From a virus: a DNA stretch of 38,356 bases. Under the pieces are notes generated by a model. The model searched no databases, was not told where the DNA came from, and worked only from the letters and a program-made list of their open reading frames with translations. Positions 3,468-38,356 of the stretch are shown piece by piece. Positions within the stretch are counted from its first letter, which is position 1; every line of letters begins with the position of its first letter. The stretch spans positions 1 through 38,356 of IMG/VR virus record IMGVR_UViG_3300044619_000333. One strand, 5' to 3'. The position numbers were made by a program, and so were the translations under genes.

Positions 3468-6400
3468 ATGCCAATTGATTTAGTTAAGTATGCTCAAGAT
3501 AATAACATTCTTGGCAGGACTGGTGTAGCAGCGCCCGTATCCAATGCGCAAAACGTATTGAATACGACGCTGCGTTCTGCTGAGTCTGCAGCACGCTACT
3601 CTCCCAATCGTGTTGACTTGCTTGAGTATTCTCGTGCGCTTGCTGCTGGGGAACAAAAGAAACCCAGTGGATTTGCTGGCATTGTTGGCAGCGTCCTTAA
3701 TCTTCCTGGCATCAAACAGGTGCTTGCACCTTTGCAGATTCTTGATGTTCCTCGTCGTGCAGTTATTTCTGCAGGTAAAGAACTGTGGGATGTGTTTGGC
3801 GAAGGTGATGCGTCTTGGGGTGACTTTGCCAAACAGGTCAAAGACCCCACTTTTGGTTTTGGCAGATTTGTCAACACGGGCAACAAGTGGCTTGACCGTA
3901 CTTTAGGTTTTATTGGTGACGTAGCATTTGACCCACTGACTTACGTGACGTTGGGTTCTAAGCATCTTGGTAGTTTTGGTCAACGTCTTGCAGCGAGTGG
4001 CAAGTTGCTTGACACGGGTGCTGACGCAACCCGTGCATCCAAACTTGTACGTGAGGGTTCATGGTTCCTGAGTGAAGCAGAACGTGCCAACCTTGGCGTT
4101 AGACGTGCTGGTGTTTATTTCATGGGCAAGCGTATCGCTGGCACATCAACTGCTGGTACAGCGTTGGAGCGTGCATTGACCGCTACCCGTTTGGGTATTG
4201 GTGACTCTTTTGTTGGTGAAGCATTCCGTAAAGCGTTTACTCCTTTAGAGTTCAAGGAAGCACAACTTGCGTTGAAGCGTGGTGTGATTCCAACTGAAGA
4301 GGGTGCACGTAATGCTATTCGTACTATTCTTTCTCGTGATGCTGCTGTCGCTGCACAGAACGCAGCATTGGAAGCAAACACAAGGGCTTTAGAAAAGGTT
4401 GCTGCTCAGGCTGGACGCAGTGTTGATGGTGCTTATTTAACCAGCCTTGCCGAAGACCCTGCACTGCTTGCGCAGGCAGATGCTGCTACACAGAAACTTG
4501 TTGGCGATGCCCGTGGATGGTATGACGCTTTGTATGACCAGGTTGATACTGCTACCAGAAATCTAACTGACCAACAGCAAGGCGTTGGTTACACTAAGGA
4601 TTATGTTTCTCGCATCATGACTGGTGAGGGACGTTCGTATGCATCCAAGACTGAATCTCTTGCTAACGAACTTGGTATTTCTCGTGCTGAACTAAGTAAG
4701 CCTGGTGTGTTTGAGGCACGTGTGCTTGAGCCTGGAAAGAAGTTCTTTGGTCGTGTGCTGACACAAGACGACATGAAGATTTCTCGTTTGAATGCTATTG
4801 CTAATGATGGCGGTTTTAAGGGTAAGTTCTTTGAGGATGACTATTTCAGGATTCTAGGTGGTTACGCTTCGCAACATGCTCGTGAAATGGGTCGCCTTAC
4901 ACGTTTTGATTATTTGAAAGCAAACGGTGTGTTGAAGTTTGTTGACCAAAAGGTTGGCGCAGATGCCACGTTTATAGCAGAAAAAGTTAAGGATGCTGTC
5001 AAACCCTTAAAGGATGTTAAGGACAGCATGACTGTTTTAACTAAGTTATTGAATAACCTTTCTGACGCAACGGTGCAAGGTCTTCAAGCAAGCGTGCAGC
5101 GTGCTCGCAGGGGTCTGGCGCAGGGCAATACTGAAGTGATTATCGCACGCCAGGCACAGACCGCTGCCGTGCGTGAAGTGATTGATGCTGCTGGAGCGTT
5201 GCGTAGGGCTGGCGAAAGTGTTGCAGCCATGTTTGACCCCACTGATGGTATTGACCTTGGGATTGTGGATGCGTTGACCAGGCAGATTGATGAGGCAACC
5301 GCTTCTATTCAGAAGCGTGTTGATGACTTTTTTGCTGGCAGTGCTGCATACAATGAGGCTGCTAGAGGTGTTCAATCAAACGAACAAAAGATTGCTTCAC
5401 TTAAAGGTGCGCTTGATGAAATCAATGGCGAAATGGAAGTGTTGTCAAACAACCTTTACACTTCGCTTCATATTCACGAGATTCTAAACACAAACATCAA
5501 TGCAATCATTGATGGCAAGACGTTGCCTATTTCTACGAAGTCTTTGGCTGACGAGATTGACGATGCTGGTTATTTGAAGCCAGGTCAGATTGCTGAGGCT
5601 CAAAGAAAGATTGAGCAGGCTGGCAAGGGTGGCGGTGCTGCACGTGGTCGCCCAACCAAGGCTGCAAAGACAGCCAAAGAGCAGGGCTTGAAGCGTGTTC
5701 AGACTGGCATCCAGTCTCGTGTGTCTGAGGCTGATTGGGCTAAGGGTGTTGCTGAGATTCATCCATTCCAAAAGTCCAAGGTCTATGCGATGACTGATGC
5801 TAGACGTGGAGATATTCTTTCTAGGGTTGCTGCTGGTAGTGTGACAGCAAATGACCTGAATAACGTGGCGATGAATATTATCGCACGTAATGAAGAGTTC
5901 TTGTTGCGTGCTGGTGGTACGTTGCCTGCAGAGTTGCAGAAAATACAGGATGAACTTGTTGGTCAGTTGAAGGAATTGGCTGGAGTTCGTAAAATAATTA
6001 GAACTGAAACTGCTCGTGTAATGCAAGGGTCAAGAAAGGTTCAGTCTCTTGAAGAAAAGGCTGGCACAGTTTTGCGTAGCCTTTATGACGAGCAAACAAC
6101 CTATGATGATTTGCTTAAGGCTAAAGAAAAGTTGGAAACAGAGTTGGATAATCTGCGTGCAGCAGATGATGTTGATGGCGCAACCATTCTTAGGCGTGAA
6201 AAGAAACTTGCAAAGATTGATGACGCTATTGAAAAGTCTGAAAATAAAGTTTTCTATGTTGGTCAAGGTGCCACACAGAAGGCTTATGGTGTTCGTAAGC
6301 GTCCTGGTTTTGATTATCGTGCAAAAGAAAATCTTCCTGCGGAGATTGGTACACCAAGTGACTTAGAGTTGCAGATTCAAAATCTTGGACGCACGGAACT

Positions 6401-11329: not shown

Positions 11330-11412
11330 TTTTGATTATTGGTGGAACGCTGTTTATTGTGTCAGCGTTTACATGCTTGTATCTTGCGCTGAGCGAAGAA
11401 GAAGAGTTTTAG
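11326..11412 (+). CDS. 28-aa single-span membrane peptide
   Basis: A short frame overlaps the lysin stop as ATGA at 11326, as expected for a coupled gene. It encodes MILIIGGTLFIVSAFTCLYL followed by an acidic tail. That is one hydrophobic helix of about 20 residues with a charged C-terminus. Position directly after the lysin suggests a lysis accessory such as a mini-holin or antiholin, but at this length function cannot be assigned. Its TAG shares bases with the stop of the convergent minus-strand gene (TTAG). Confidence 0.5.
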   Translation: MILIIGGTLFIVSAFTCLYLALSEEEEF

Positions 11413-12008
11413 CGTTCTTGTGTCAGCACCGCAAATGGCGGTCCTGTCATAACATCCCATTTGGAAGCAATGGTGATTGCTTTAAGCATGATGGTTCGTG
11501 CTTGTTGCAGTGAGGGACGTTGCTTTGGCATGAGCGCATCCAACGCTCCTAGAGCGTATGGTGCGCCTGTTCCTATCGCATACACACCTCTGCTGTCGCT
11601 CATCCAGCCGTAGTCTGATTCAATGCTGTAGATGGTGGCGTTGATTACTGCGATGATGTTTGATGAGTGGCTTACTGTCCCATTGTCTTTGTCTGTACCG
11701 CTATAGCCATGCGTTTCAAGGCACGCACGCAGACTTGGAATAAACTTCGCAGTAATAAAAGCATCTAACTTTCTGCCTTTCATGTTGTCCGTTGGGGTTG
11801 GTGGTGTGAATGCGTGGTGAAGGATGTTGATGGCTCGCATGTCGCCTGCTGCACCAAGAATGTATTTGCCGTTGGTTGCAACTTTGGTTGAGCCAGACCC
11901 AAGCGTGTTCGCTTGGTAAATCATGTCGTTGTCGTCAAATGAGGTGATGCGAGAGTCTGATACGACAATCGCATAGTTGTCACCTTGTAGACCCAGTATT
12001 GTTGTCAT
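11409..12008 (-). CDS. Proteasome-beta/HslV-like Ntn hydrolase
   Basis: This 199-residue protein begins MTTILGLQGD, so removal of Met would expose a Thr with the TTI start typical of proteasome-type hydrolases, and no propeptide is present. SDSR at 17-20 supplies the conserved Asp. The Lys in STKVATNGK (42) fits the catalytic Lys33 position. GAAGD at 52-56 and AIGTGAPYALGALDAL near 144-159 match the family's Gly-rich and Ser129 regions. Family members form ring-shaped proteases fed by an ATPase; no unfoldase is seen here, so it may use a host one, act alone, or have another amidase role. It is the last gene of the minus arm and its start overlaps the upstream mini-gene as ATGA. Confidence 0.82.
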   Translation of the reverse strand: MTTILGLQGDNYAIVVSDSRITSFDDNDMIYQANTLGSGSTKVATNGKYILGAAGDMRAINILHHAFTPPTPTDNMKGRKLDAFITAKFIPSLRACLETHGYSGTDKDNGTVSHSSNIIAVINATIYSIESDYGWMSDSRGVYAIGTGAPYALGALDALMPKQRPSLQQARTIMLKAITIASKWDVMTGPPFAVLTQER

Positions 12009-12751: not shown

Positions 12752-13579
12752 TTACTTCCTATTCCAATCTGCACTCAGTGCCAAATCAAATGTGCCATCA
12801 TTGAGCATTAATGCGACTACACAGTATCCTACAATGTCTATTACTGTGTCTACGATTGTTTCGTTAGGCACAGCGTTCTCACGATGCACCAGGTTGGCGT
12901 ATCGTTCTATTTTGTCTGACAGACGAACTATAACTCCAAGCAATCCAAAGCGGTTGATGTTGTTGTGTCCGTAGTCGTGTTGCTTAGAACAGAGCGTGTT
13001 CAACATGCAGCCCGTATCCCATGCGTCTGTAAGACGCAGGTGATTGATTGCTTGCACAGCGATGCCTGTCCAATAGTTGTGTGATGGCGGTGATTGTGCC
13101 AAGAGAACCTCTGCACCGTAGTTGCGTTGTGCTTGCAGGTCTGCGATGTTTAGTTCTTTGGGTTCGTTTGCCAAGGTTGATAGATGTGTCAGCCATTGTG
13201 ATGCTGACTCGTTCCAACTTTCTGCCACTTTAATCTTTCTCCTTATGATTGGGTTGACTGACATTATGCTTTCTAGTTTTTCAAATGCTTTGTTGCGTAG
13301 TCGCCACACATGGGTTTTGGTTATGCCCATCCGTGATGCAAGTTGTTGCAACGAGATTTGTTCTGACAGCAATGCTTCAATAATGAATCTGTCTTGTTCA
13401 TCTAGTAGTTCAATTGATTCCGCTACTGCTTCTCTCAGTGGTTGTAGTTCATAGATGGAAACCTCTGGGCTTTCACCTGGCGGTGTTTGCATCAACGCTT
13501 CCAGTTCTGTCATGGGCTTAGAGTTGTGCAGGGGCGTGAACACCCCGACCATCTCTTTGGCTATCTCACGTTTCGCCAT
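12752..13579 (-). CDS. Sigma-region-4-like HTH fused to DUF1599/Nmad1-like domain
   Basis: The protein has 275 residues from ATG 13579, with GGGAG about 9 bases upstream; an in-frame TTG at 13597 is less likely. Residues 52-105 form a sigma-70 region-4 type helix-turn-helix: LDEQDRFIIEALL, then QLASRMGITKTHVWRLRNKA. Residues 195-258 match the DUF1599 (nucleotide modification associated domain 1) pattern, with CSKQHDYGHNNINRFG, then GVIVRLSDKIERYANL and a helical IVDTVIDIVGYCV. Nmad1 domains are common in phages and proposed to act in nucleotide or base modification, without a settled reaction. The protein could regulate transcription, act on nucleotides, or link both. It overlaps the upstream nuclease-like gene by 14 bases. 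Confidence 0.72.
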   Translation of the reverse strand: MAKREIAKEMVGVFTPLHNSKPMTELEALMQTPPGESPEVSIYELQPLREAVAESIELLDEQDRFIIEALLSEQISLQQLASRMGITKTHVWRLRNKAFEKLESIMSVNPIIRRKIKVAESWNESASQWLTHLSTLANEPKELNIADLQAQRNYGAEVLLAQSPPSHNYWTGIAVQAINHLRLTDAWDTGCMLNTLCSKQHDYGHNNINRFGLLGVIVRLSDKIERYANLVHRENAVPNETIVDTVIDIVGYCVVALMLNDGTFDLALSADWNRK

Positions 13580-14030
13580 CGTACTTGACTCCCTCAACAG
13601 GGAAGTTGTCTGAGTTTAATCTGACGTACTCCTTGTTGTTGTCTGGGAAACGTGCCATCTCGCCATACGAGACGCACGCAGAGAACCAGTCGTCAATCTC
13701 TGCCAGCCACCACTTCTTACGATACGAGTCGTACACAAACAGGTGAACTTCACCAGTCATGTGCCACTTCAGTAGTGCATTGATTTTCTCAATTTTAATT
13801 TTGAGAGTTTTATCTTTGCCAATACCCATGACTTCAACAAGACCGTTGGGGGTCAGATAGTCTGGCGTGTATCGCAGCATTGGTGGCAAGTTTGCTACGT
13901 ACATGTTGGGGCGGTTCAACCCGTAGCGGTGATGGTTGGGTGTCAGTGTTTCAAACACGCCTTCAGATACGTCACCCATTTGTGAGTAGCGTACAGCGAA
14001 TGGTGCTTGGTGGAATGCTCTACCTGTCAT
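13566..14030 (-). CDS. Possible PD-(D/E)XK-type nuclease, 154 aa
   Basis: The central part reads YTPDYLTPNGLVEVMGIGKDKT, split here as PD at 56-57, Glu66 and Lys72, followed by a helix (KIKIEKINALL) and a beta strand (VHLFVYD). This order, PD then E with a nearby Lys and a following helix, fits small PD-(D/E)XK endonucleases that recognise or resolve DNA. The usual E-X-K spacing is not exact (Met at +2), so the assignment is tentative. The start ATG overlaps the RusA stop as ATGA and has a GAGGAAG site. Two resolvase-like genes side by side could mean distinct roles in recombination and packaging of branched DNA. Confidence 0.5.
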   Translation of the reverse strand: MTGRAFHQAPFAVRYSQMGDVSEGVFETLTPNHHRYGLNRPNMYVANLPPMLRYTPDYLTPNGLVEVMGIGKDKTLKIKIEKINALLKWHMTGEVHLFVYDSYRKKWWLAEIDDWFSACVSYGEMARFPDNNKEYVRLNSDNFPVEGVKYDGET

Positions 14031-14356: not shown

Positions 14357-14598
14357 TGGTATGGAACCCCTCTCCACTGTGTTGCGGAGTGGTTCTCCTG
14401 AATGATGCGTGCCTCAATGTTGGTTTCGTAAACACGAATAATACTGATGCATGGGTCTTCACCTTCAGCCCACTGTTGTTCTTCTTCGGGTGTGCAGGGC
14501 AGACCATCGTGTGTGTAGCACACGGGTGGTCCGCCATAGTTGTTGCGAACACCAACAGCAACCCATTCTTCAAAAGTTAGTTTAGGCAGATTTATCAT
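14353..14598 (-). CDS. Hypothetical protein, 81 aa
   Basis: A small acidic protein, MINLPKLTFEEWVAVG at its start, with an aromatic N-terminal helix, a Gly/Pro turn with two Cys (YGGPPVCYTHDGLPC) and a C-terminal strand-rich part. I know no named family. The ATG overlaps the primase stop by 4 bases and its TGA overlaps the RusA start, so it is translated as part of the replication operon. Two Cys and two His residues could hold a metal, but the spacing does not match a standard ribbon. Confidence 0.6.
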   Translation of the reverse strand: MINLPKLTFEEWVAVGVRNNYGGPPVCYTHDGLPCTPEEEQQWAEGEDPCISIIRVYETNIEARIIQENHSATQWRGVPYQ

Positions 14599-15491
14599 TT
14601 CACTCCGTATGCGTGGTTAATCATTTTCAATAGTTCGTTGTCACCGTCGCTACGCATATGGAACTTGCCCCACCGTTTGTCAGCATTGCGTAGAACACTG
14701 AATGCTTCTGTGGGTGTAAGGCTCGTGTTCACGAGGCGATGTGCTAGGCGGTACAGAGTGTTGGAACGGTCAGAACCTGGGTAAGGTCCGTCTCGCCAAA
14801 TGATGTATGAGACTGCATCAACACGTGTCAGCAGATACTTCACATCTTCAGATGGTGTATCTACGTCTATTGTGTGGATGTGTGGCGGTGTATACAGCGA
14901 TGCGATTGCATCTAACTTGGTGCGTGATGTGCGATGCTTCATCGCATACTCGTGCCATGTGCGTAACCCCATAGGTTGCCCATCTTGTTCCAACATGTAG
15001 CGAACGTCTGACGGGCTACGTAACTCGCCTGGGTATGGCAAGCGTACGTAGTTGCCGAAACCTTTACCAGGGTTTTCCTGTTTGGGGTTGACTTCTTTCG
15101 CTGGGTAGTTGATTGCTTGGTGGGCTGCAAGGAATGCTCTGCGCATTGTTGACGCTGGCACAAGCCCGTCTGCGAACACCCAAATGTGATAGCCCTTTAC
15201 GGTCTTCTCAATGTGGGCGACGATGTTCTTTATGAAGAACGCTAGTTGTAGGTTGCGTGCTGCATCCAGGTCGTCTACGTCAATGTCGCTACAACCCCAC
15301 ACGCACCCGAATGCGCCTTCAAATGGAACCAATGGGTAGACACCAATTAGTTCTTCGCCCATCAAATGGTTTTCAAATGATGTGCGGTCAAGGGGTTTGC
15401 GTACACATCCACCGTCCCATGAACCGTAGGCATCGCCACGTCCACGAAACAGTGACACGAATGCGTCAATGACTGGTGCGTCGTCAAACAT
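14595..15491 (-). CDS. Archaeo-eukaryotic-type primase (AEP; possible primase-polymerase)
   Basis: The protein has 298 residues from ATG 15491, which overlaps the helicase stop as TAATG; a TTG seven codons earlier is less likely. DIDVDD at 69-74 gives the metal-binding DxD of AEP enzymes. KGYHIWVF at 99-106 is the conserved GxH motif. GNYVRLPYP at 146-154 is the third AEP motif. A PriCT-like helical tail follows (SDRSNTLYRLAHRL near 240-252). AEP enzymes make primers and some extend DNA as primase-polymerases. Pairing with a DnaB-type helicase suggests a compact replisome. No separate polymerase gene is visible, so extension by this enzyme or by the host polymerase are both open. Confidence 0.82.
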   Translation of the reverse strand: MFDDAPVIDAFVSLFRGRGDAYGSWDGGCVRKPLDRTSFENHLMGEELIGVYPLVPFEGAFGCVWGCSDIDVDDLDAARNLQLAFFIKNIVAHIEKTVKGYHIWVFADGLVPASTMRRAFLAAHQAINYPAKEVNPKQENPGKGFGNYVRLPYPGELRSPSDVRYMLEQDGQPMGLRTWHEYAMKHRTSRTKLDAIASLYTPPHIHTIDVDTPSEDVKYLLTRVDAVSYIIWRDGPYPGSDRSNTLYRLAHRLVNTSLTPTEAFSVLRNADKRWGKFHMRSDGDNELLKMINHAYGVK

Positions 15492-16537
15492 TAGAACAAC
15501 TGTTCTTTCCAAGCAACCTGACGCAGATATTGGTCAGGCATCTCACCGTCTCGCAACGGGTAGATACGTCCTGTGTGAATGTCTAACTCAAAGTCCACGT
15601 CATCTACGAGCATGCCACCAGGGCGCTTGTTCTTCAACAGCGACACAGTGACTGTGTATTCATGAATCTTCAAATCGTATCGCAACATATCCAAGCGGTC
15701 TTGTGCACGCTCAGTTGGGCTACGGTCAATCTTCTCCATCAGTTCGTTTATCTCAGAAATGATTTCGTACTTCTTGCGTCGTACACCAATGATTGAGGTG
15801 GCTTGTTGTTCGCCACCGTACGCACCAGATGACATGGACAGTTTGCGTCCGTCCGCACCAGAGGAGCGTGAAGTTTGGTGAAGCACCAGCATTGGTACAT
15901 CGTGTCTGCGTCCAAAACCTTTTACGAAGCCAGCCTTGTCAGGTACCGTTTCTCCTGCCTCAACGAGTTCAAGATAGTCAACGATTACTAAGTCAGGCTT
16001 CTGACCCCATACGTCTGAAACTTCGCCAAAGGCTCGTTCCATGTCGCTAGGAATCAGTGGCTGGTCAAACACAGCAAGGTTGGGGAAGAACTCTTCAGCG
16101 GTAGAACGCAACAGGTTGATTGCCTGTTCATCGTTGCTAGCGATTCGCTTCTCTAGTTCTCGTGCATCAATGCCGTGTGCGATACATGTCAACTTGGATA
16201 ACACCAAGGTGCGTGGTTCGTCAGGAATGAACATGGCAATCTTCTTGTCACGATTGCCAAGCAGAGCGTTCAGTAGTACAAGTGTTTTACCACCGTGACT
16301 GTAACCCAAAAGCATACTAAGTTCACCTGGCGCAATGCCACGCATCTCTTGGTCAATGCTTTCAATCCCTAAATAGATTCTCTGTTCAGGTGATTGCGCC
16401 CAACGCACATACGAGTGGGCTGCGTTACTAAGTGGTTCGTACAAACGGAACTCCCTAACAGGAGAGAGAGGGGCTACTTCGCCCCTCTCCACCTGCGTCC
16501 AACCCTGCAGAACATCTTCTGCGGTCAGTCTGGTCAT
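15491..16537 (-). CDS. Replicative DNA helicase, DnaB-like RecA-fold ATPase
   Basis: The protein has 348 residues from ATG 16537 (overlap TGATG with the upstream stop). It has a DnaB-C/RecA-like core. Walker A is GYSHGGKT at 78-85, Walker B is VIVDYLEL at 184-191, and HQTSR at 220-224 is the sensor/H-motif. It lacks the full N-terminal DnaG-interacting domain of cellular DnaB (about 450 residues), as in many phage helicases. It would unwind the phage DNA ring-like around the lagging strand, working with the AEP primase next to it. The C-terminus (SLLKNKRPGG) matches the usual DnaB arginine-finger region. Confidence 0.88.
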   Translation of the reverse strand: MTRLTAEDVLQGWTQVERGEVAPLSPVREFRLYEPLSNAAHSYVRWAQSPEQRIYLGIESIDQEMRGIAPGELSMLLGYSHGGKTLVLLNALLGNRDKKIAMFIPDEPRTLVLSKLTCIAHGIDARELEKRIASNDEQAINLLRSTAEEFFPNLAVFDQPLIPSDMERAFGEVSDVWGQKPDLVIVDYLELVEAGETVPDKAGFVKGFGRRHDVPMLVLHQTSRSSGADGRKLSMSSGAYGGEQQATSIIGVRRKKYEIISEINELMEKIDRSPTERAQDRLDMLRYDLKIHEYTVTVSLLKNKRPGGMLVDDVDFELDIHTGRIYPLRDGEMPDQYLRQVAWKEQLF

Positions 16538-18762: not shown

Positions 18763-19695
18763 TTACGAGACGAGCGCAAATGCACGCTCAGTTAGTGGGT
18801 AGTTGTCTGCAAGTATACGGCTGATTCGTTGCACACCACGCTTGCCAGGAGCGCAACGGGAATAGTGTTCATCAACTGCTTCCGCAGCCATAACTATACC
18901 CCAACCTGTGTTTTTGATGTTGGCATTGTGGTCAGAGTTGTACTCGCTAAGTAGCAAATCTAATCTCCTCTCCCACTCAGTCAGCGCACGCCCATCAGTA
19001 TCTGGACGCTTACCAGCAATCTTACCCATCATAGGGACAGACATTTCATCAGTCACTTGATACTTAAGTAACTGTTCAATCTCTGCATCCATCGCATCAT
19101 AGATGCGTACAGCGTCCTGCACAGCCTTGAGTGCGAACGGTATCAGTCTGCCTTGATTAATGTTGTGTGACAGCGAAAAGATTTTGCTACCACTACGCAA
19201 CAGCGCACGAAACATATTCATGCACCTCAGTTCTTGCACAACAGCGTGACCGCCAAACAAACGATTGCCGTTCGTACCGTTGTACAACAAGATGTGACGA
19301 TACCTAAGGTCGCCACCAGGAGAGCCGACAGGCTCACCGTCCAGACACACGCCAAGGAATTGAGTGCGTTCATCAGTGGACTGACCGCCAAGCACAATGT
19401 GTGCATCAGGTCGCACTTTGATGATGGCTTCAGCAAAGTGACCAAGCATCTCAGGTTGGAAATGCAAGAACCGTGACGAGTTCACACCAAGCACAGCAAG
19501 GTCAGTGTCACGCATCGCAACATGGAAACGCTCAGAGTGTTTAGCGTTGCCAGTCAACTGACTAAGTGGCACACTATCAATCCGATAATTAAGTCCTGCT
19601 AGACGCAACGCTTCCGTTGGGTCAGTCAGTTTGGTATTGCTAAGTGAGCACGGCGTGCCACGAAACGATGTTGATGTTTTCATTATTTCATTCAT
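18763..19695 (-). CDS. DUF932 family phage/plasmid protein, 310 aa
   Basis: The gene starts at ATG 19695 after AAGGAA. Features of DUF932 (also modelled as a phage/plasmid-like TIGR03299 family) are visible. HVAMRDTDLAVLGVNSSRF matches the typical strand and turn, split as RDTDLAVLGV then SSRF. A central VVLGGQ-like strand with a Gly turn follows, and then ELRCMNMFRALLRSGS with HNI, which resembles the R-x-x-C-x-N and S-x-x-H motifs of the family. The function is unknown; members occur on plasmids and phages of many bacteria. Here it belongs to the amidoligase block, which is a context worth noting. Codon use is like its neighbours. Confidence 0.8.
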   Translation of the reverse strand: MNEIMKTSTSFRGTPCSLSNTKLTDPTEALRLAGLNYRIDSVPLSQLTGNAKHSERFHVAMRDTDLAVLGVNSSRFLHFQPEMLGHFAEAIIKVRPDAHIVLGGQSTDERTQFLGVCLDGEPVGSPGGDLRYRHILLYNGTNGNRLFGGHAVVQELRCMNMFRALLRSGSKIFSLSHNINQGRLIPFALKAVQDAVRIYDAMDAEIEQLLKYQVTDEMSVPMMGKIAGKRPDTDGRALTEWERRLDLLLSEYNSDHNANIKNTGWGIVMAAEAVDEHYSRCAPGKRGVQRISRILADNYPLTERAFALVS

Positions 19696-20486: not shown

Positions 20487-21359
20487 TCACCTCCAATCAT
20501 TTGTTTTGCTGTCGTAGTAAAGGTCAAGCAGTCTGTCGTCTGCGCTGTTGCTGTACCAAGAGTCAGAGCATGTGCAATGCTCGTCAAACTCTTCGCACAC
20601 TAAACAAACATCACAGTCAGGGCATGCTGTCTCACCTTTGCTTTCATCTACTTTCCATTGCACATCGCACAGTGGGCAAGTAGCAACCCAGATGTTGTCG
20701 TCCCACTCATCGTATAAGTCACGACTGTTGTGTGAGCGAATAGATGGTGACGATTCCCACGACCACGAATAGTTAGTCGTTGGCTTATATGTGTACGTCC
20801 TAGGCTTGTAGGAATCGTTAGACCACCACACACCACCACTATCCCAGTGACCCATTTGCTCGTTAGCAATGTAGAACGATTGCTTAGCACGAGGGTCATT
20901 AGTGAGAATGACCAACTTGGATGCACCAATTTGTTTCTCAACAAACTGAAACGCCTCAGGGTCATCAAGCACACCAGCACCACCAAGTTTAGGCAGAACA
21001 ACTTCTGCATAGAACCTAGTGTCACTACGCTTGTCACCTTTGGGTTGCTCAATAGGAATGATGCCGTTGTGACCTAACACAGTGCGGTCATCGTGACCTA
21101 CATAGAACGGGTGGCAGTTCTTCTTATTGACTGTGCCGTGCGTAGCCCAACGAAGATGAAACATTGACTCACCAGGAGTCAGTTCCAACTGTTGATGATA
21201 CGCAGTGACAACCTTGTCAAAGTTCATACCACGACCACGAACGATGCGGTCACCAATGTTGATAGCCCAACCGAAACCGTCAGGGTTTGCGATTGATGCA
21301 GTCTCTAGAGAATCCAGAGACGGGGTTGCGCCCTTGTGGGCGAATACTAATAGACACAT
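20487..21359 (-). CDS. Class II glutamine amidotransferase with C-terminal zinc ribbons
   Basis: The 290-residue protein begins MCLLVFAHKG, giving the N-terminal Cys nucleophile of Ntn-type class II glutamine amidotransferases. HLRWATHG at 68-75 is the conserved Arg-x-x-Thr/His site and GHNGII at 96-101 the Asn-Gly oxyanion element, as in YafJ-like enzymes. These domains release ammonia from glutamine. Residues 228-264 contain CPLC, CPDC and a further four Cys, likely two zinc sites not found in simple YafJ proteins. The role is probably supplying ammonia to, or deamidating products of, the amidoligase next door. The leader has dyad copy 1, CAA repeats and AAAGGAG before ATG 21359. Confidence 0.85.
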   Translation of the reverse strand: MCLLVFAHKGATPSLDSLETASIANPDGFGWAINIGDRIVRGRGMNFDKVVTAYHQQLELTPGESMFHLRWATHGTVNKKNCHPFYVGHDDRTVLGHNGIIPIEQPKGDKRSDTRFYAEVVLPKLGGAGVLDDPEAFQFVEKQIGASKLVILTNDPRAKQSFYIANEQMGHWDSGGVWWSNDSYKPRTYTYKPTTNYSWSWESSPSIRSHNSRDLYDEWDDNIWVATCPLCDVQWKVDESKGETACPDCDVCLVCEEFDEHCTCSDSWYSNSADDRLLDLYYDSKTNDWR

Positions 21360-21390
21360 GTGTGTCTCCTTTCTTTTGTTGTTGTTGAAG

Positions 21391-21410
21391 ATTGTAAATG
21401 TAATTACAAT
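21391..21410 (-). promoter_or_regulatory. Dyad element, copy 1
   Basis: ATTGTAATTACATTTACAAT read on the minus strand. The arms ATTGTAA/TTACAAT are perfect inverted repeats around a six-base centre. It is flanked by G and C that extend the dyad to eight pairs. It overlaps the stop codon of the amidoligase and lies 31 bases before the amidotransferase start. One of five copies. Confidence 0.8.
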
Positions 21411-23275
21411 CAGACTTCAGTGATGACACGAGTGACACGGCGGTCAATGCGGTCAGCGCACTGCGAGTATTGGGGCTTGTCGTTCAGCCATTCACGGAAC
21501 TGAGCGAACTCAAACTTGCCATCGTAATGGTCACGGCATGAGAGAACACGAGTCCACTCTGCGAGAGCATCAGCAAGTTCAAGATACGCTGTCACAGTTT
21601 CTGGAACCATTGAGGAACGGAAGATGCGCAATTCAATCGTGTGCTCGTTCTGAACATTCACAGCGACATAACGCTCAGGATTGCTTTCACCTTTGGCACG
21701 GTCAATGAACTGCATACGCTCGTACTCTGCATAGTCTGCCCAACGCTTAGAGCGACGACCAGAGAACTTGACGAGTTCATCTTGGAACTTGTACACAGCG
21801 AGAATGAATCGTGCGGTGTGCGCACGATTGGTGAAACCACTGCGTGACAAGTGAATGTGAATACCGCATTTCAGTTTGTCATCACTATCTTTCGCATCCC
21901 AAGCAATGAAACCATTGCGCTTGCACTCTGCAAGCCAGTCCCAGAACTTGTTGAAATTGCGATGAGACTCAAGCGTCATGGGTTGTGACACATACTCAAA
22001 GCCTTGATAGCCGATAGAGCCATCTTCTTTGAGAATTGCATACTCGTTCTCAATGCTGTCGTAGAACGAATCAACCATCTCATCACGATTACGAGTCTCA
22101 TTAAGCATCTCGTGCTCAAGACCTAGATACATGACACCTGGCTTTGCACGATGAATGTGAGTGCCGTTGTCGTGGAAACGCAAACCACACAAGTCGTCAA
22201 ACTTGGTGGTGTACGACATGATGCCACGACCATTGCAACGCTGGCAATCTTCCTCGTCACCTTCAATGGTTCTATCTTGCGACTCGCAATAGTGATAGCG
22301 AGGTGCACAGTACTCGTGATAACTGTTGTAGCCACGGCGTGGAGTGTAAATCTCAACAACATCATCATGGTCACGCATTATCTCATCACACTCTTGACAT
22401 ACGCTGTAGTTGCTCGCACAACCATCGCAAATCTGCTCACCACTAGGTGTGTGGTCACTGAGGTCGTAGGTGCTGTAACACTCTTCACACTCTTCACACA
22501 TGAACCAATAGTTTTCCGAATACCAACTACCGTTAATATCCATCCATCCATCATCTAGTAACTCGTCACGAGTTCCTCTAGCAGTGATGTTGCAGTTGCG
22601 TGTGCACTCAACATCAAGTATTTCTTCTTCTTCGTTTGACATTTCTGTCTCCTGTTCTGTTGTTGTTGTTGTTTCAATGCCCCACACGGGGCAGAGATTT
22701 TGTATCTGCTGGCTAATGCTTGAAATGGTGTTTGCCATTCCTGCATGAACAATCATCAGATGATTATCATCGCCAATCGTACCACCACGAGCAGTTTCTA
22801 AATGCCTAGAAACATGAACGGGTATTGCCATCTCTGCAGTATCAAAGCGCCACCATGAAACACGAGTGCGGTCTTGCCACAATTTCTCAAGTTTCACAAT
22901 TTGACCACCTGGCAAAAAGTATTCAGCACTGGTGTTGTTGGGTAGTGAAAGTATGCCATACGATGCATCAGACCAATCACCAACAACTAGACCGCCGTGC
23001 GAATAAGGATTGCGCACGAACTGTTCAAAAGTTGATTGTGCAATTCGTTCTTCGTAACAAACGAATAGATACGCACGACCAAAAGAGTTTGTGATGATGT
23101 TGCTACCACCATTCACACTGGAACTCATTGAGAACCAGATTGTGTAAATGTTTCTTGTATTCGCACAATGCACAACAACCGATGATGTGGGCATTGTTGA
23201 TGGTGAGGAAATGTATCGCACGGCACCTTTTGTCGCACGCACAAGCCCATACCAATTTAATGTTGGGAATAACAT
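21410..23275 (-). CDS. Amidoligase (GS-fold COOH-NH2 ligase) with Cys-rich central region
   Basis: The gene encodes 621 residues. The C-terminal third has all marks of the Amidoligase_2 family, a glutamine-synthetase-fold ligase. GLEHE at 385-389, EDGSI at 417-421 with GFEYVS, CGIHIHLS at 470-477, and NVQNEHTIELRIFR at 540-553 are the metal and ATP-binding motifs. Residues 224-347 hold about thirteen Cys in C-x2-C pairs (zinc sites). Residues 1-205 are a separate unknown domain. The family joins an amino group to a carboxylate, making amides or peptide conjugates, often beside a class II amidotransferase as here. An internal start with its own leader at 22642 may produce a 410-residue form. 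Dyad copy 2 precedes the main start. Confidence 0.85.
   Translation of the reverse strand: MLFPTLNWYGLVRATKGAVRYISSPSTMPTSSVVVHCANTRNIYTIWFSMSSSVNGGSNIITNSFGRAYLFVCYEERIAQSTFEQFVRNPYSHGGLVVGDWSDASYGILSLPNNTSAEYFLPGGQIVKLEKLWQDRTRVSWWRFDTAEMAIPVHVSRHLETARGGTIGDDNHLMIVHAGMANTISSISQQIQNLCPVWGIETTTTTEQETEMSNEEEEILDVECTRNCNITARGTRDELLDDGWMDINGSWYSENYWFMCEECEECYSTYDLSDHTPSGEQICDGCASNYSVCQECDEIMRDHDDVVEIYTPRRGYNSYHEYCAPRYHYCESQDRTIEGDEEDCQRCNGRGIMSYTTKFDDLCGLRFHDNGTHIHRAKPGVMYLGLEHEMLNETRNRDEMVDSFYDSIENEYAILKEDGSIGYQGFEYVSQPMTLESHRNFNKFWDWLAECKRNGFIAWDAKDSDDKLKCGIHIHLSRSGFTNRAHTARFILAVYKFQDELVKFSGRRSKRWADYAEYERMQFIDRAKGESNPERYVAVNVQNEHTIELRIFRSSMVPETVTAYLELADALAEWTRVLSCRDHYDGKFEFAQFREWLNDKPQYSQCADRIDRRVTRVITEV
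22642..22692 (-). promoter_or_regulatory. Internal leader and ribosome-binding site inside the amidoligase gene
   Basis: On the minus strand a GCCCC-GTGT-GGGGC hairpin (22679-22692) is followed by five CAA repeats, then AGGAGAC and ATG 22642, in frame (Met212). The CAA run, GAACAGGAGAC and spacing closely match the leader of the amidotransferase gene (CAACAACAACAA, AAAGGAGAC). A second start at Met212 would give the Cys-rich plus ligase part alone. This could instead be a fossil of a gene fusion. Confidence 0.6.
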
Positions 23276-23297: not shown

Positions 23298-23317
23298 ATT
23301 GTAAATGAAATTACAAT
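23298..23317 (-). promoter_or_regulatory. Dyad element, copy 2
   Basis: ATTGTAATTTCATTTACAAT on the minus strand, followed by CTAACAAAGGAGAAATACAA and the amidoligase ATG, 22 bases between dyad and start. The dyad and the spacing before the ribosome site match copy 3 almost base for base. Confidence 0.8.
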
Positions 23318-23831: not shown

Positions 23832-23851
23832 ATTGTAAATGAAATTACAAT
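23832..23851 (-). promoter_or_regulatory. Dyad element, copy 3
   Basis: ATTGTAATTTCATTTACAAT on the minus strand, followed by TTTAACAAAGGAGAAACAAA and ATG 23810. It is identical to copy 2 in the dyad and nearly so in the following leader. It begins directly after the stop of the upstream 72-aa gene. Confidence 0.8.
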
Positions 23852-24340: not shown

Positions 24341-24360
24341 ATTGTAAATGTAATTACAAT
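24341..24360 (-). promoter_or_regulatory. Dyad element, copy 4
   Basis: ATTGTAATTACATTTACAAT on the minus strand. Its last base on the plus strand falls in the stop codon of the upstream 154-aa gene, as copy 1 does with the amidoligase. Unlike the others, it is about 100 bases from the next start, with the long hairpin between. Confidence 0.8.
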
Positions 24361-24844: not shown

Positions 24845-24864
24845 ATTGTAAATGCAATTACAAT
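24845..24864 (-). promoter_or_regulatory. Dyad element, copy 5
   Basis: ATTGTAATTGCATTTACAAT on the minus strand, flanked by G and C as in copy 1. It lies 20 bases before the TTG start of the 154-aa gene, with TCAACAAGGAGAAAATAAA between. Position 10 is the only base that varies among the five copies. Confidence 0.8.
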
Positions 24865-36193: not shown

Positions 36194-36912
36194 TGGGTGA
36201 AGTTTATGTAAGAGATGGTGGCTCCTGGCAGCAAATACCTAATGGCACAGCGCTATCCGTAAGGGATGGCGGTTCTTGGGTTAACCCAACTGAAGTGTTC
36301 GTGCGCAGTGGTGGGGCGTGGGAAACTGTTTGGCTGGAGTCTGACCCGTTAACAGTTACCTCCAATGTTGCTGGTGCGGAAACTTTCAGACGTTCTGCTG
36401 GTGGAACAATGTCTTGGAACCCCGCTGGTGATGCGGGTTATGCATACATTGGTCGCTTTAGTGGTTCATACGACAATGTGGGTTGCTTTAACGTGACCAA
36501 TGGTTTGTATGCGCTTGCAATGGGTGCACGTCAAACAGTTACTTCTGCTTCCTTCACTTTAAAACGTGGACCATCTGCTGGTTCATCTAGCATTTCTGGA
36601 ACGGTTTATCTTGGTTTGTACACGGGCACATTTAACAGTGGCACACCCTTGTATACTAATTTGGATTTTACCCCCAGCGGTTCTAAGGTTTTATCGTCTG
36701 TTGGTTTTGATGATGTAATCACATTTGACCTTGGTACAACTTTTGGTCAAGTTGTGAATGATGCTATTCGTGCGGATGGCGCCGTTGTGTTGGCGTACTC
36801 TGTGCGAACCAGTGGCTGGGATGCCACGGGTTCTACGGATAGTTTGTACTCTAAGTGGCGTGGACCTAGTACCGCCTACACAGGAACTCTTAGCATTACG
36901 TGTGATTACTGA
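36193..36912 (+). CDS. Minor tail or fibre protein, 239 aa
   Basis: ATG 36193 overlaps the previous stop as TGATG; the longer frame from 36178 is not needed. Residues 1-50 hold three repeats of VR(D/S)GG(S/A)W (near 5, 25 and 40), a pattern also seen in tail proteins of actinobacterial phages. The remaining 190 residues are beta-rich with many Gly, Ser, Thr and no Cys pair, probably a jelly-roll-like sandwich. The stop overlaps the fibre start. No enzymatic motif; receptor or fibre accessory is likely. Confidence 0.65.
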   Translation: MGEVYVRDGGSWQQIPNGTALSVRDGGSWVNPTEVFVRSGGAWETVWLESDPLTVTSNVAGAETFRRSAGGTMSWNPAGDAGYAYIGRFSGSYDNVGCFNVTNGLYALAMGARQTVTSASFTLKRGPSAGSSSISGTVYLGLYTGTFNSGTPLYTNLDFTPSGSKVLSSVGFDDVITFDLGTTFGQVVNDAIRADGAVVLAYSVRTSGWDATGSTDSLYSKWRGPSTAYTGTLSITCDY

Positions 36913-38356
36913 TGGCGGACGAACCTAGGGCATTGAATGATGCGCCTCGTAGCGCAACTGGTGAGCAGGAGTGGACTGCTCCACTCATGCATGCCTTAAA
37001 GGGTCGTGACTCCAAAACCCTGCAGACAATTTTCAACTCACTAAAGGGTGAACTAAAGCGCATCAAGGCTTTGGCTGAGGCTGGTGGAGGTGGTGGTGGT
37101 GTCACGGACCACGGCGCTTTGACGGGTCTTGCGGATGATGACCATACACAGTATTTGAATACTGCACGTCATGATGCTCTTGACCATTCCACAGCGTTGG
37201 GCACTGCAGCGTTGACTGACCTTGGTGATGTGACAATCACGTCGCCAGAAGAATACCAAACTTTAGAGTATGATGGAACGCAGTGGATTAATAAACACGC
37301 TTCTCTTGTTTCGTATGTGCGAAATGTTGATACTGTTACTTTGCCTACTGGTACTTGTGTTTATTTGTTTGGTGCCACTGGCGACCACGCTACCGTTAAG
37401 CGTGCAGACAACTCCTCTGATACTACTTCTTCTAAAACTGTTGGTTTGATGGGTGCTAGCACGACAGTTAATAACAATGGTCCTGTTGTTACTCGTGGCT
37501 ATGTTGATGGTATTAATTTGACTGCTTATGCGCCTGGTGATATTTTATGGCTTGACAAAAATGGTGCCTTCACAAAAACAAAACCCACATCCCCAGACCA
37601 TCTGGTTTTTATTGGCGTTGTTGTCCGTGCAAACAATAATGGTATTGTGTATGTTGCTACACAGAATGGTTATGAGTTAGATGAGTTACATGACGTAAAC
37701 ATTTCCTCACCTGCAACAGACCACTATTTGTATTATGATGGCACTGTCAGCCCACCATTGTGGAAGAACAAAGCATTCCCAACCAGCCTGCCACCTAACG
37801 GTGCGGCTGGAGGAGACTTAACAGGAACATACCCTAATCCCACTTTGGGGGCTGTTGGTACGGCAGGGACATACACGAAAGTAACGACAGATTCCAAAGG
37901 GCGTGTCACTGCTGGCACAACGCTGGATGAGTCTGACATTCCTAGTTTGTCACCCACAAAGATTACGGGCACTGCTGTTATTACAACAGATGCCCGTCTC
38001 AGTGATTCACGTACACCTACTGGTGCTGCTAGTGGCGATTTAACTGGTACGTATCCTGGTCCAACCTTGGCTGCGACTGGCACTGCTGGTACGTACACTA
38101 AAGTTACAACTGATTCTAAAGGTCGTGTCACCAGCGGTACGAATGCTGCACTAGATGACCTAAGTGATGTTGTAATCAGTGGTCCAGCCAACGGACAAGC
38201 GTTGCAATACAATGGCACTAACTGGGTTAACGCAACGCCATCTACTGGCGTTACTGACCACGGCTTGTTGACAGGATTGGGTGACGACGACCACACGCAA
38301 TACTTGAACGACTCAAGGCATGATGCTCGTGACCACTCTGCTGCTTTAAGCACGGC
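36912..38356 (+). CDS. Tail fibre, N-terminal part (runs off the right edge)
   Basis: ATG 36912 overlaps the previous stop (TGATG) and the frame is open for 481 codons to the edge. Residues 55-64 are a Gly hinge. Repeats follow: VTDHGALTGLADDDHTQYLN with RHDALDHS near residue 64, repeated near residue 447 (VTDHGLLTGLGDDDHTQYLN), and two GDLTGTYP blocks near 301 and 374, each followed by GTAGTYTKVTTDSKGRVT. Such repeats form beta-helical shaft segments of trimeric fibres. The tip is missing and is likely encoded by bases 1-617. The plain end-to-start join is out of frame. Confidence 0.8.
   Translation, partial: MADEPRALNDAPRSATGEQEWTAPLMHALKGRDSKTLQTIFNSLKGELKRIKALAEAGGGGGGVTDHGALTGLADDDHTQYLNTARHDALDHSTALGTAALTDLGDVTITSPEEYQTLEYDGTQWINKHASLVSYVRNVDTVTLPTGTCVYLFGATGDHATVKRADNSSDTTSSKTVGLMGASTTVNNNGPVVTRGYVDGINLTAYAPGDILWLDKNGAFTKTKPTSPDHLVFIGVVVRANNNGIVYVATQNGYELDELHDVNISSPATDHYLYYDGTVSPPLWKNKAFPTSLPPNGAAGGDLTGTYPNPTLGAVGTAGTYTKVTTDSKGRVTAGTTLDESDIPSLSPTKITGTAVITTDARLSDSRTPTGAASGDLTGTYPGPTLAATGTAGTYTKVTTDSKGRVTSGTNAALDDLSDVVISGPANGQALQYNGTNWVNATPSTGVTDHGLLTGLGDDDHTQYLNDSRHDARDHSAALST

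Follow-up and report, generated by a model that had tools for sequence, protein, structure and literature searches.

Near-obligate pairing of an amidoligase with a class II glutamine amidotransferase, both with conserved cysteine modules, in phages and actinobacterial mobile elements

The window, a virus record of 38,356 bases taken over its whole length, encodes an Amidoligase_2 ligase and a class II glutamine amidotransferase (GAT) that we read, with a probability of about 55%, as a two-gene glutamine-dependent amidation enzyme. Both proteins show the fold of their family and intact catalytic residues, both possess conserved Cys modules, and the two genes are adjacent and co-inherited in a manner close to obligate. 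Amidoligase/GAT pairs are already known from the mycobacteriophage Marvin, the OM43 phages and the phiEco32/LUZ24 cassettes. The present analysis puts numbers on the near-obligate pairing, delimits a zinc-bearing clade, follows the pair onto plasmids and into mobile regions of chromosomes, and argues for an accessory role of the zinc modules.

The gene pair and its block

The plus strand of the window contains the head, packaging and tail genes, and the minus strand contains an early gene block. The ligase and GAT genes are both intact and lie inside this early block, the ligase being transcribed first and the GAT second. Their main features are the following.

21410 to 23275, minus strand: Amidoligase_2 ligase ORF, 621 aa (Pfam and PHROGs)
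21422 to 22129, minus strand: ligase catalytic core (aa 383-618) of GS/GCS fold, with GLEHE, DGS, E427, HIH, R507 and TIELR (invariant residues, pLDDT, Foldseek)
22643 to 23275, minus strand: aa 1-211 of the ligase, an orphan N-terminal extension (positive codon bias, pLDDT below 50)
22640 to 22660, minus strand: possible internal ligase start, AGGAGA and then ATG at 22642 (MSNEEEE...), from the sequence
20487 to 21359, minus strand: GAT, class II glutamine amidotransferase, 290 aa (Pfam GATase_4, PHROG 25883, AlphaFold model)
20790 to 21359, minus strand: GAT catalytic domain (aa 1-190) with Cys2, RWATHG, NCHPF, HNG and SDT (motif positions, invariant residues)
21391 to 21410, no strand: operator-like 20-bp palindrome (ATTGTAAATGTAATTACAAT) between ligase and GAT (exact repeat)
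23298 to 23317, no strand: the same 20-bp palindrome (ATTGTAAATGTAATTACAAT) upstream of the ligase start (exact repeat)

The ligase matches Pfam Amidoligase_2 (PF12224; E 9.9e-7, 29.3 bits against a cut-off of 22) and PHROGs 16683, 22302 and 2443 'amidoligase enzyme'. Its motifs are located at residues 385 (GLEHE), 418 (DGS), 471 (GIHIH) and 546 (TIELR), and G385, E387, E389, D418, E427, H473, H475, R507, T546, E548 and R550 are invariant in 41 relatives. In the structural model, the core is mostly above pLDDT 85-90, the zinc region is at about 75-80, and residues 1-252 have no confident prediction. Foldseek matches of the core include YbdK (1r8g), glutamine synthetases, gamma-glutamylmethylamide synthetase (GMAS), plant glutamate-cysteine ligase (GCL) and Dop, with modest TM-scores, in part because the query contains the unmodelled N-terminus, so that the fold family is shown and not the function. 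As judged from profiles and model, the protein is an Amidoligase_2 enzyme with a GS/GCS-like fold and predicted ATP-dependent amide ligase activity. The invariant residues and fold matches bear out the complete GS-fold ligase motifs described in the earlier note, and the GS-like active site is kept in the predicted fold.

The ligase also carries an N-terminal extension of 211 residues that had been overlooked. Its in-frame codon usage indicates that it is coding; a search for relatives of the extension found none, and no confident fold was predicted for it. The in-frame ATG at 22642, which has its own AGGAGA, could give rise to a second, shorter ligase product. This AGGAGA is not kept as a Shine-Dalgarno sequence in the syntenic relative L064.

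All class II features are present in the GAT, namely the catalytic Cys after Met at the N-terminus, RWATHG, HNG and Asp. Beyond Cys2, the motifs are found at residues 70 (RWATHG), 81 (NCHPF), 97 (HNG) and 112 (SDT), and C2, H68, R70, T73, H97, N98, G99 and D113 are invariant in 40 relatives. The match to PHROG 25883 is strong (E 2.8e-38); that to Pfam GATase_4 (E 4.2e-5) falls exactly at the 23-bit cut-off, and the PF13230 match is reached only at its cut-off. The AlphaFold model (pLDDT 84.7) has the Ntn GATase fold and matches the glutaminase domain of GlmS (1xff, E 4e-9). GlmS glutaminase structures rank above EgtC (E 3e-5) and YafJ-like proteins in the fold list, and GlmS glutaminase is also first in the profile search (E 1.8e-9) and in NCBIfam. 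By profile and fold, the GAT is nearer to the ammonia-producing GlmS glutaminase than to the hydrolase EgtC. The earlier description as a class II amidotransferase with Cys2 is confirmed by motifs, profiles and Ntn fold, whereas the label 'YafJ-type' is not supported, GlmS being nearer than YafJ/EgtC by profile, fold and NCBIfam.

The palindrome ATTGTAAATGNAATTACAAT, 20 bp in length, has five exact copies in the window (21391-21410, 23298-23317, 23832-23851, 24341-24360 and 24845-24864) against 0 expected from shuffles. The copies are confined to the ligase-GAT gene block, most of them about 20-35 bp ahead of a start codon, and may be considered operator- or stoperator-like. In L064 a different palindrome, GGTTAGGCACCTAAC, is located at 3628, 4263, 4724, 5948 and 7930. 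Several of its copies fall in gaps that correspond to those of the window, which suggests that the regulatory layout is shared and that the repressor has changed its specificity.

Other minus-strand genes of the window include an HslV/proteasome-like Ntn protein (11409-12008; Pfam Proteasome E 1.2e-8, with a counterpart of 44% identity in the Actinomycetia phage DSL-LC01), a sigma-70 region 4-like HTH fused with DUF1599, a nucleotide-modification-associated domain (12752-13597), an AEP primase that adjoins a DnaB-like helicase and matches the primase model of the TOTE conflict system with E 7.6e-16 (14595-15512), and, downstream of the ligase-GAT pair, a phage/plasmid-like protein of the DUF932/TIGR03299 type (18763-19695), with a similar gene in L064. 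A repetitive tail-fibre-like frame exits the right end of the window (36912-38354) and similar repeats begin at the left end (1-617), as if a circular or permuted genome had been cut within a tail-fibre-like gene. The phage nearest by terminase, MW202803 (53.6%), is absent from the matches of the pair, and the pair is therefore accessory to the phage. No DNA-level relatives of the pair were found in phage records.

Cysteine modules of the two enzymes

20568 to 20678, minus strand: GAT C-terminal 8-Cys module (aa 228-264), C-x2-C-x14-C-x2-C-x2-C-x2-C-x6-C-x-C (Cys conservation)
22181 to 22606, minus strand: ligase Cys-rich region (aa 224-365) with 14 Cys, a predicted multi-zinc module (conservation, weak LIM match)

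Cys-rich segments are present in both proteins, as had been noticed before, with corrected counts of 14 rather than about 13 in the ligase and eight rather than six in the GAT tail. The eight GAT cysteines (C228, 231, 246, 249, 252, 255, 262 and 264) show no variation when the GAT is aligned with Marvin gp106 and two environmental phages, and their pattern was reached in 0 of 20,000 shuffles of the GAT; the module is predicted to bind two zinc ions. The 14 ligase cysteines are located between residues 224 and 363, ahead of the catalytic core; C293, C296 and C323 are invariant and C260, C320, C330 and C347 are conserved in at least 90% of 41 relatives. By profile, this region weakly resembles LIM domains (7lt9, E 4e-4), and paired CxxC knuckles are conserved in both modules, as in LIM/double-ribbon-like zinc modules. 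Both would thus be zinc-binding.

The two modules differ in distribution. Ligase Cys clusters are found in nearly all relatives, including the marine ones and also L052 and L095, which have CxxC clusters, and are absent from the phiEco32, LUZ24 and Clostridioides phage ligases. The 8-Cys GAT tail occurs in 43 of 66 non-redundant GATs, all within one clade of 48 leaves (support 0.90), and in 65 of the 67 pairs from the ligase-side set. This clade is mainly actinobacterial; among its members are Marvin-type mycobacteriophages as well as mobile regions on the chromosomes of Nocardia and genomes related to it. The Cys region of the ligase is thus almost family-wide, and the GAT tail marks one clade.

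Marine relatives have the zinc region in the ligase only, their GAT being without it. In one group of actinophages it is the ligase zinc region that is largely lost, about two CxxC remaining, and the 8-Cys tail of the GAT is retained. The modules therefore vary independently, and the idea put forward in the earlier note, that the zinc regions simply hold the two enzymes together, is weakened; zinc-to-zinc pairing cannot be a general rule. This distribution suggests that the modules are dispensable for catalysis. They are probably accessory, used for docking on a macromolecular acceptor or partner protein or for target recognition.

Pairing, co-inheritance and carriers

Relatives came from GAT queries, with a few annotated phages added, and every open frame was scanned with profile HMMs; a few of the GAT-side loci (e.g. 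L056, L058) had entered via ligase matches. The GAT-side count comprises 102 GAT frames having upstream sequence, which form 53 clusters at 90% identity, and a ligase adjoins the GAT in 51 of them. Gaps between the two genes are mostly -13 to +5 bp, so that translational coupling is likely. In a separate ligase-side search, which returned 80 loci, a GAT was found in 77 of 77 with downstream sequence, the other three contigs stopping at the ligase. These counts sustain the earlier proposal of a functional pair. Lone genes in relatives are very rare: the GAT-side exceptions are a divergent GAT in which NCHPF is changed to NCQPL (L063/L101) and a short GAT of 166 aa from a Bifidobacterium phage (L054), and profile HMMs on open frames detected no GAT beside the Clostridioides phage ligase without zinc motifs (L055). 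With lone genes this scarce and a GS-like active site in the predicted fold, the two refuting conditions set in the earlier note largely do not apply. The gene order is reversed in L062 and is GAT-ligase-GAT-like in L013, where the second GAT-like Ntn protein (L013:10258-11022) follows the ligase directly, starts with MATGII and is without the catalytic Cys. In L159 the match lies within a high-GC open frame of 4,298 aa.

The distance matrices of ligase and GAT are correlated (r = 0.93, n = 53), a value reached by 0 of 2,000 permutations, which shows co-inheritance of the two proteins, not contact. Inter-protein coevolution gave no interface; the alignment is shallow (Neff 65) and the top couplings resemble the clade split. 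A comparison of neighbourhoods gave no third gene or enzyme that recurs next to the pair; the phage genes seen there are specific to particular lineages.

The pair is carried by Marvin-type mycobacteriophages, OM43 phages and many marine and freshwater viral contigs, and also by mycobacterial plasmids of about 144-155 kb. In the two families to which the Nocardia and the Labedaea loci belong, 8 of 301 and 13 of 297 genomes have chromosomal regions of this kind, and 18 of the 19 chromosomal loci fetched contain the pair. Most of the Nocardia-family loci have the pair twice in tandem (L104, L143-L149), and one has three pairs (L158). Neighbouring genes include those for Prim-Pol, SSB, DprA and a secretion ATPase, suggesting that these chromosomal regions are integrative or plasmid-like elements.

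Reaction, acceptor and related systems

The best reading of the GAT is that it supplies the ligase with ammonia, because it has no synthetase domain of its own, almost always has the ligase as neighbour and resembles ammonia-feeding glutaminases. In the proposed mechanism, the GAT would hydrolyse glutamine via its N-terminal Cys2 and free ammonia; the GS-fold ligase would activate an acceptor carboxylate with ATP as acyl phosphate and attach the ammonia to it, giving a carboxamide. The two proteins would probably form a complex, with the accessory zinc modules most likely docking them on the acceptor, thought to be a macromolecule, or on a partner. Glutaminase-type and gamma-glutamyl-hydrolase class II enzymes have the same glutamate-binding residues, so the motifs do not settle the reaction, and it speaks against amidation that YbdK, the nearest solved ligase fold, joins glutamate to cysteine, not ammonia. 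Of the 'amide or peptide conjugates' proposed in the earlier note, the amide is retained, amidation by glutamine-derived ammonia being better supported and more specific; nothing indicates a peptide product.

Among known systems, gp105/gp106 of Marvin (cluster S) resemble the window pair in gene order, in both families, in the 8-Cys GAT tail and in the Cys-rich ligase, and differ in an identity of 31-34%, an annotated ligase without the long N-terminal extension and a gap of 78-79 bp. According to PMC10580990, which cites Mageeney 2012 for it, the Marvin pair has already been noted in print. The same paper reports adjacent amidoligase and GATase genes of OM43 phages as auxiliary metabolic genes (PMC10580990), and a pair has been reported in LUZ24-like phages (PMC3890496). 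The OM43 phages MEP401 and MEP402 have an adjoining pair with CxxC in the ligase, as in the window, with a GAT that is without the 8-Cys tail. YbdK/GCS2 and glutamine synthetase share the ligase fold at about 12% identity and have no zinc region.

Iyer 2009 is said to be the source for the 'peptidoglycan modification' cassette of phiEco32, LUZ24 and RIO-1. As in the window, an amidoligase is there followed by a GlmS-like class II GAT; the cassette is however larger, adding a PF14395 ligase, an ATP-grasp protein and a cyclotransferase, its ligases are without CxxC, its GATs are longer (510 and 676 aa), and its sequences are distant from those of the window pair. For phiEco32/RIO-1, PMC5498523 proposes that this larger cassette acts on peptidoglycan. 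A precedent for the window pair is MurT-GatD of Staphylococcus aureus, a two-gene enzyme that amidates lipid II in a glutamine-dependent manner and whose ligase contains a zinc ribbon (PMC6113224). Its ligase has the Mur ligase fold and its GATase uses C94 with H189 rather than an N-terminal Cys; these folds are unrelated to those of the window pair, so the likeness is one of analogy only.

Peptidoglycan stem peptides, the acceptor type of MurT-GatD, are the leading guess for the acceptor, albeit a tentative one. The corresponding explanation, that the pair is a reduced peptidoglycan modification cassette which alters stem peptides and blocks superinfection, names an acceptor and is compatible with the amidation model. 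It draws on the ligase-then-GAT order shared by LUZ24 and phiEco32 and on the role proposed for such cassettes (PMC5498523, PMC10580990), which these papers put forward as a proposal for the phiEco32 and RIO-1 phages. The LUZ24 and phiEco32 ligases are only distant relatives, however, and a scan covering most window proteins longer than about 95 aa found no match to the PF14395 COOH-NH2 ligase, ATP-grasp or gamma-glutamyl cyclotransferase, so this explanation is possible rather than probable.

Somewhat less likely is that the pair serves counter-defence or host takeover by modifying a protein or nucleic acid, to which the zinc modules would direct the enzymes. The pair is common to phages, mycobacterial plasmids and integrative-type regions, all elements exposed to host defences, and its occurrence in the two genome families is sporadic; against this, defence-system models (PADLOC) gave no match and no linked defence or anti-defence gene was identified. 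A narrower version is speculative and rather unlikely: an amidation cassette dedicated to actinobacterial mobile elements (phages, plasmids, integrative elements), whose target would be a single macromolecule, either protein or nucleic acid, modified so as to blunt host defence or redirect the host, with zinc modules on both enzymes guiding them to it.

The main rival to the amidation reaction itself is a gamma-glutamyl protect-and-release scheme, in which the ligase would form a conjugate, gamma-glutamyl or another amide, for later hydrolysis by the GAT. EgtA/EgtC in ergothioneine synthesis and PuuA/PuuD in putrescine use are models of such ligation followed by hydrolysis. The scheme accords with the gamma-glutamylcysteine ligase YbdK as nearest ligase fold, with EgtC and YafJ-like structures in the GAT fold list and with the cyclotransferase of related phage cassettes. 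It is made doubtful by the closer likeness of the GAT to GlmS/PurF glutaminases than to EgtC; moreover, the window proteins scanned include no cyclotransferase and no enzyme of an intermediate step, nor does one recur as a neighbour of the pair. Pup-like protein tagging, with the GS-fold ligase acting like PafA/Dop, was set aside as highly improbable: Dop ranks 20th among the fold matches of the ligase (E 2.7e-3), Actinobacteria are the likely hosts and the window encodes the proteasome-like protein, but YbdK and glutamine synthetase outscore Dop, the proteasome-like gene lies about 9 kb off, is also found in unrelated phages and did not appear as a recurrent neighbour, and no Pup-like gene was identified.

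A literature search on zinc ribbons and amidoligases, its scope lying outside Iyer 2009 and Mageeney 2012, found these modules not evidently described; the conserved zinc attachments and the spread to bacterial plasmids appear to be so far undescribed. Phage amidoligase and GAT genes have long been annotated, with cell-wall modification or host metabolism as the guesses and no product identified in the papers found. A near-inseparable pair, its zinc-bearing form and its presence in Marvin, a culturable phage of M. smegmatis, make the question directly testable.
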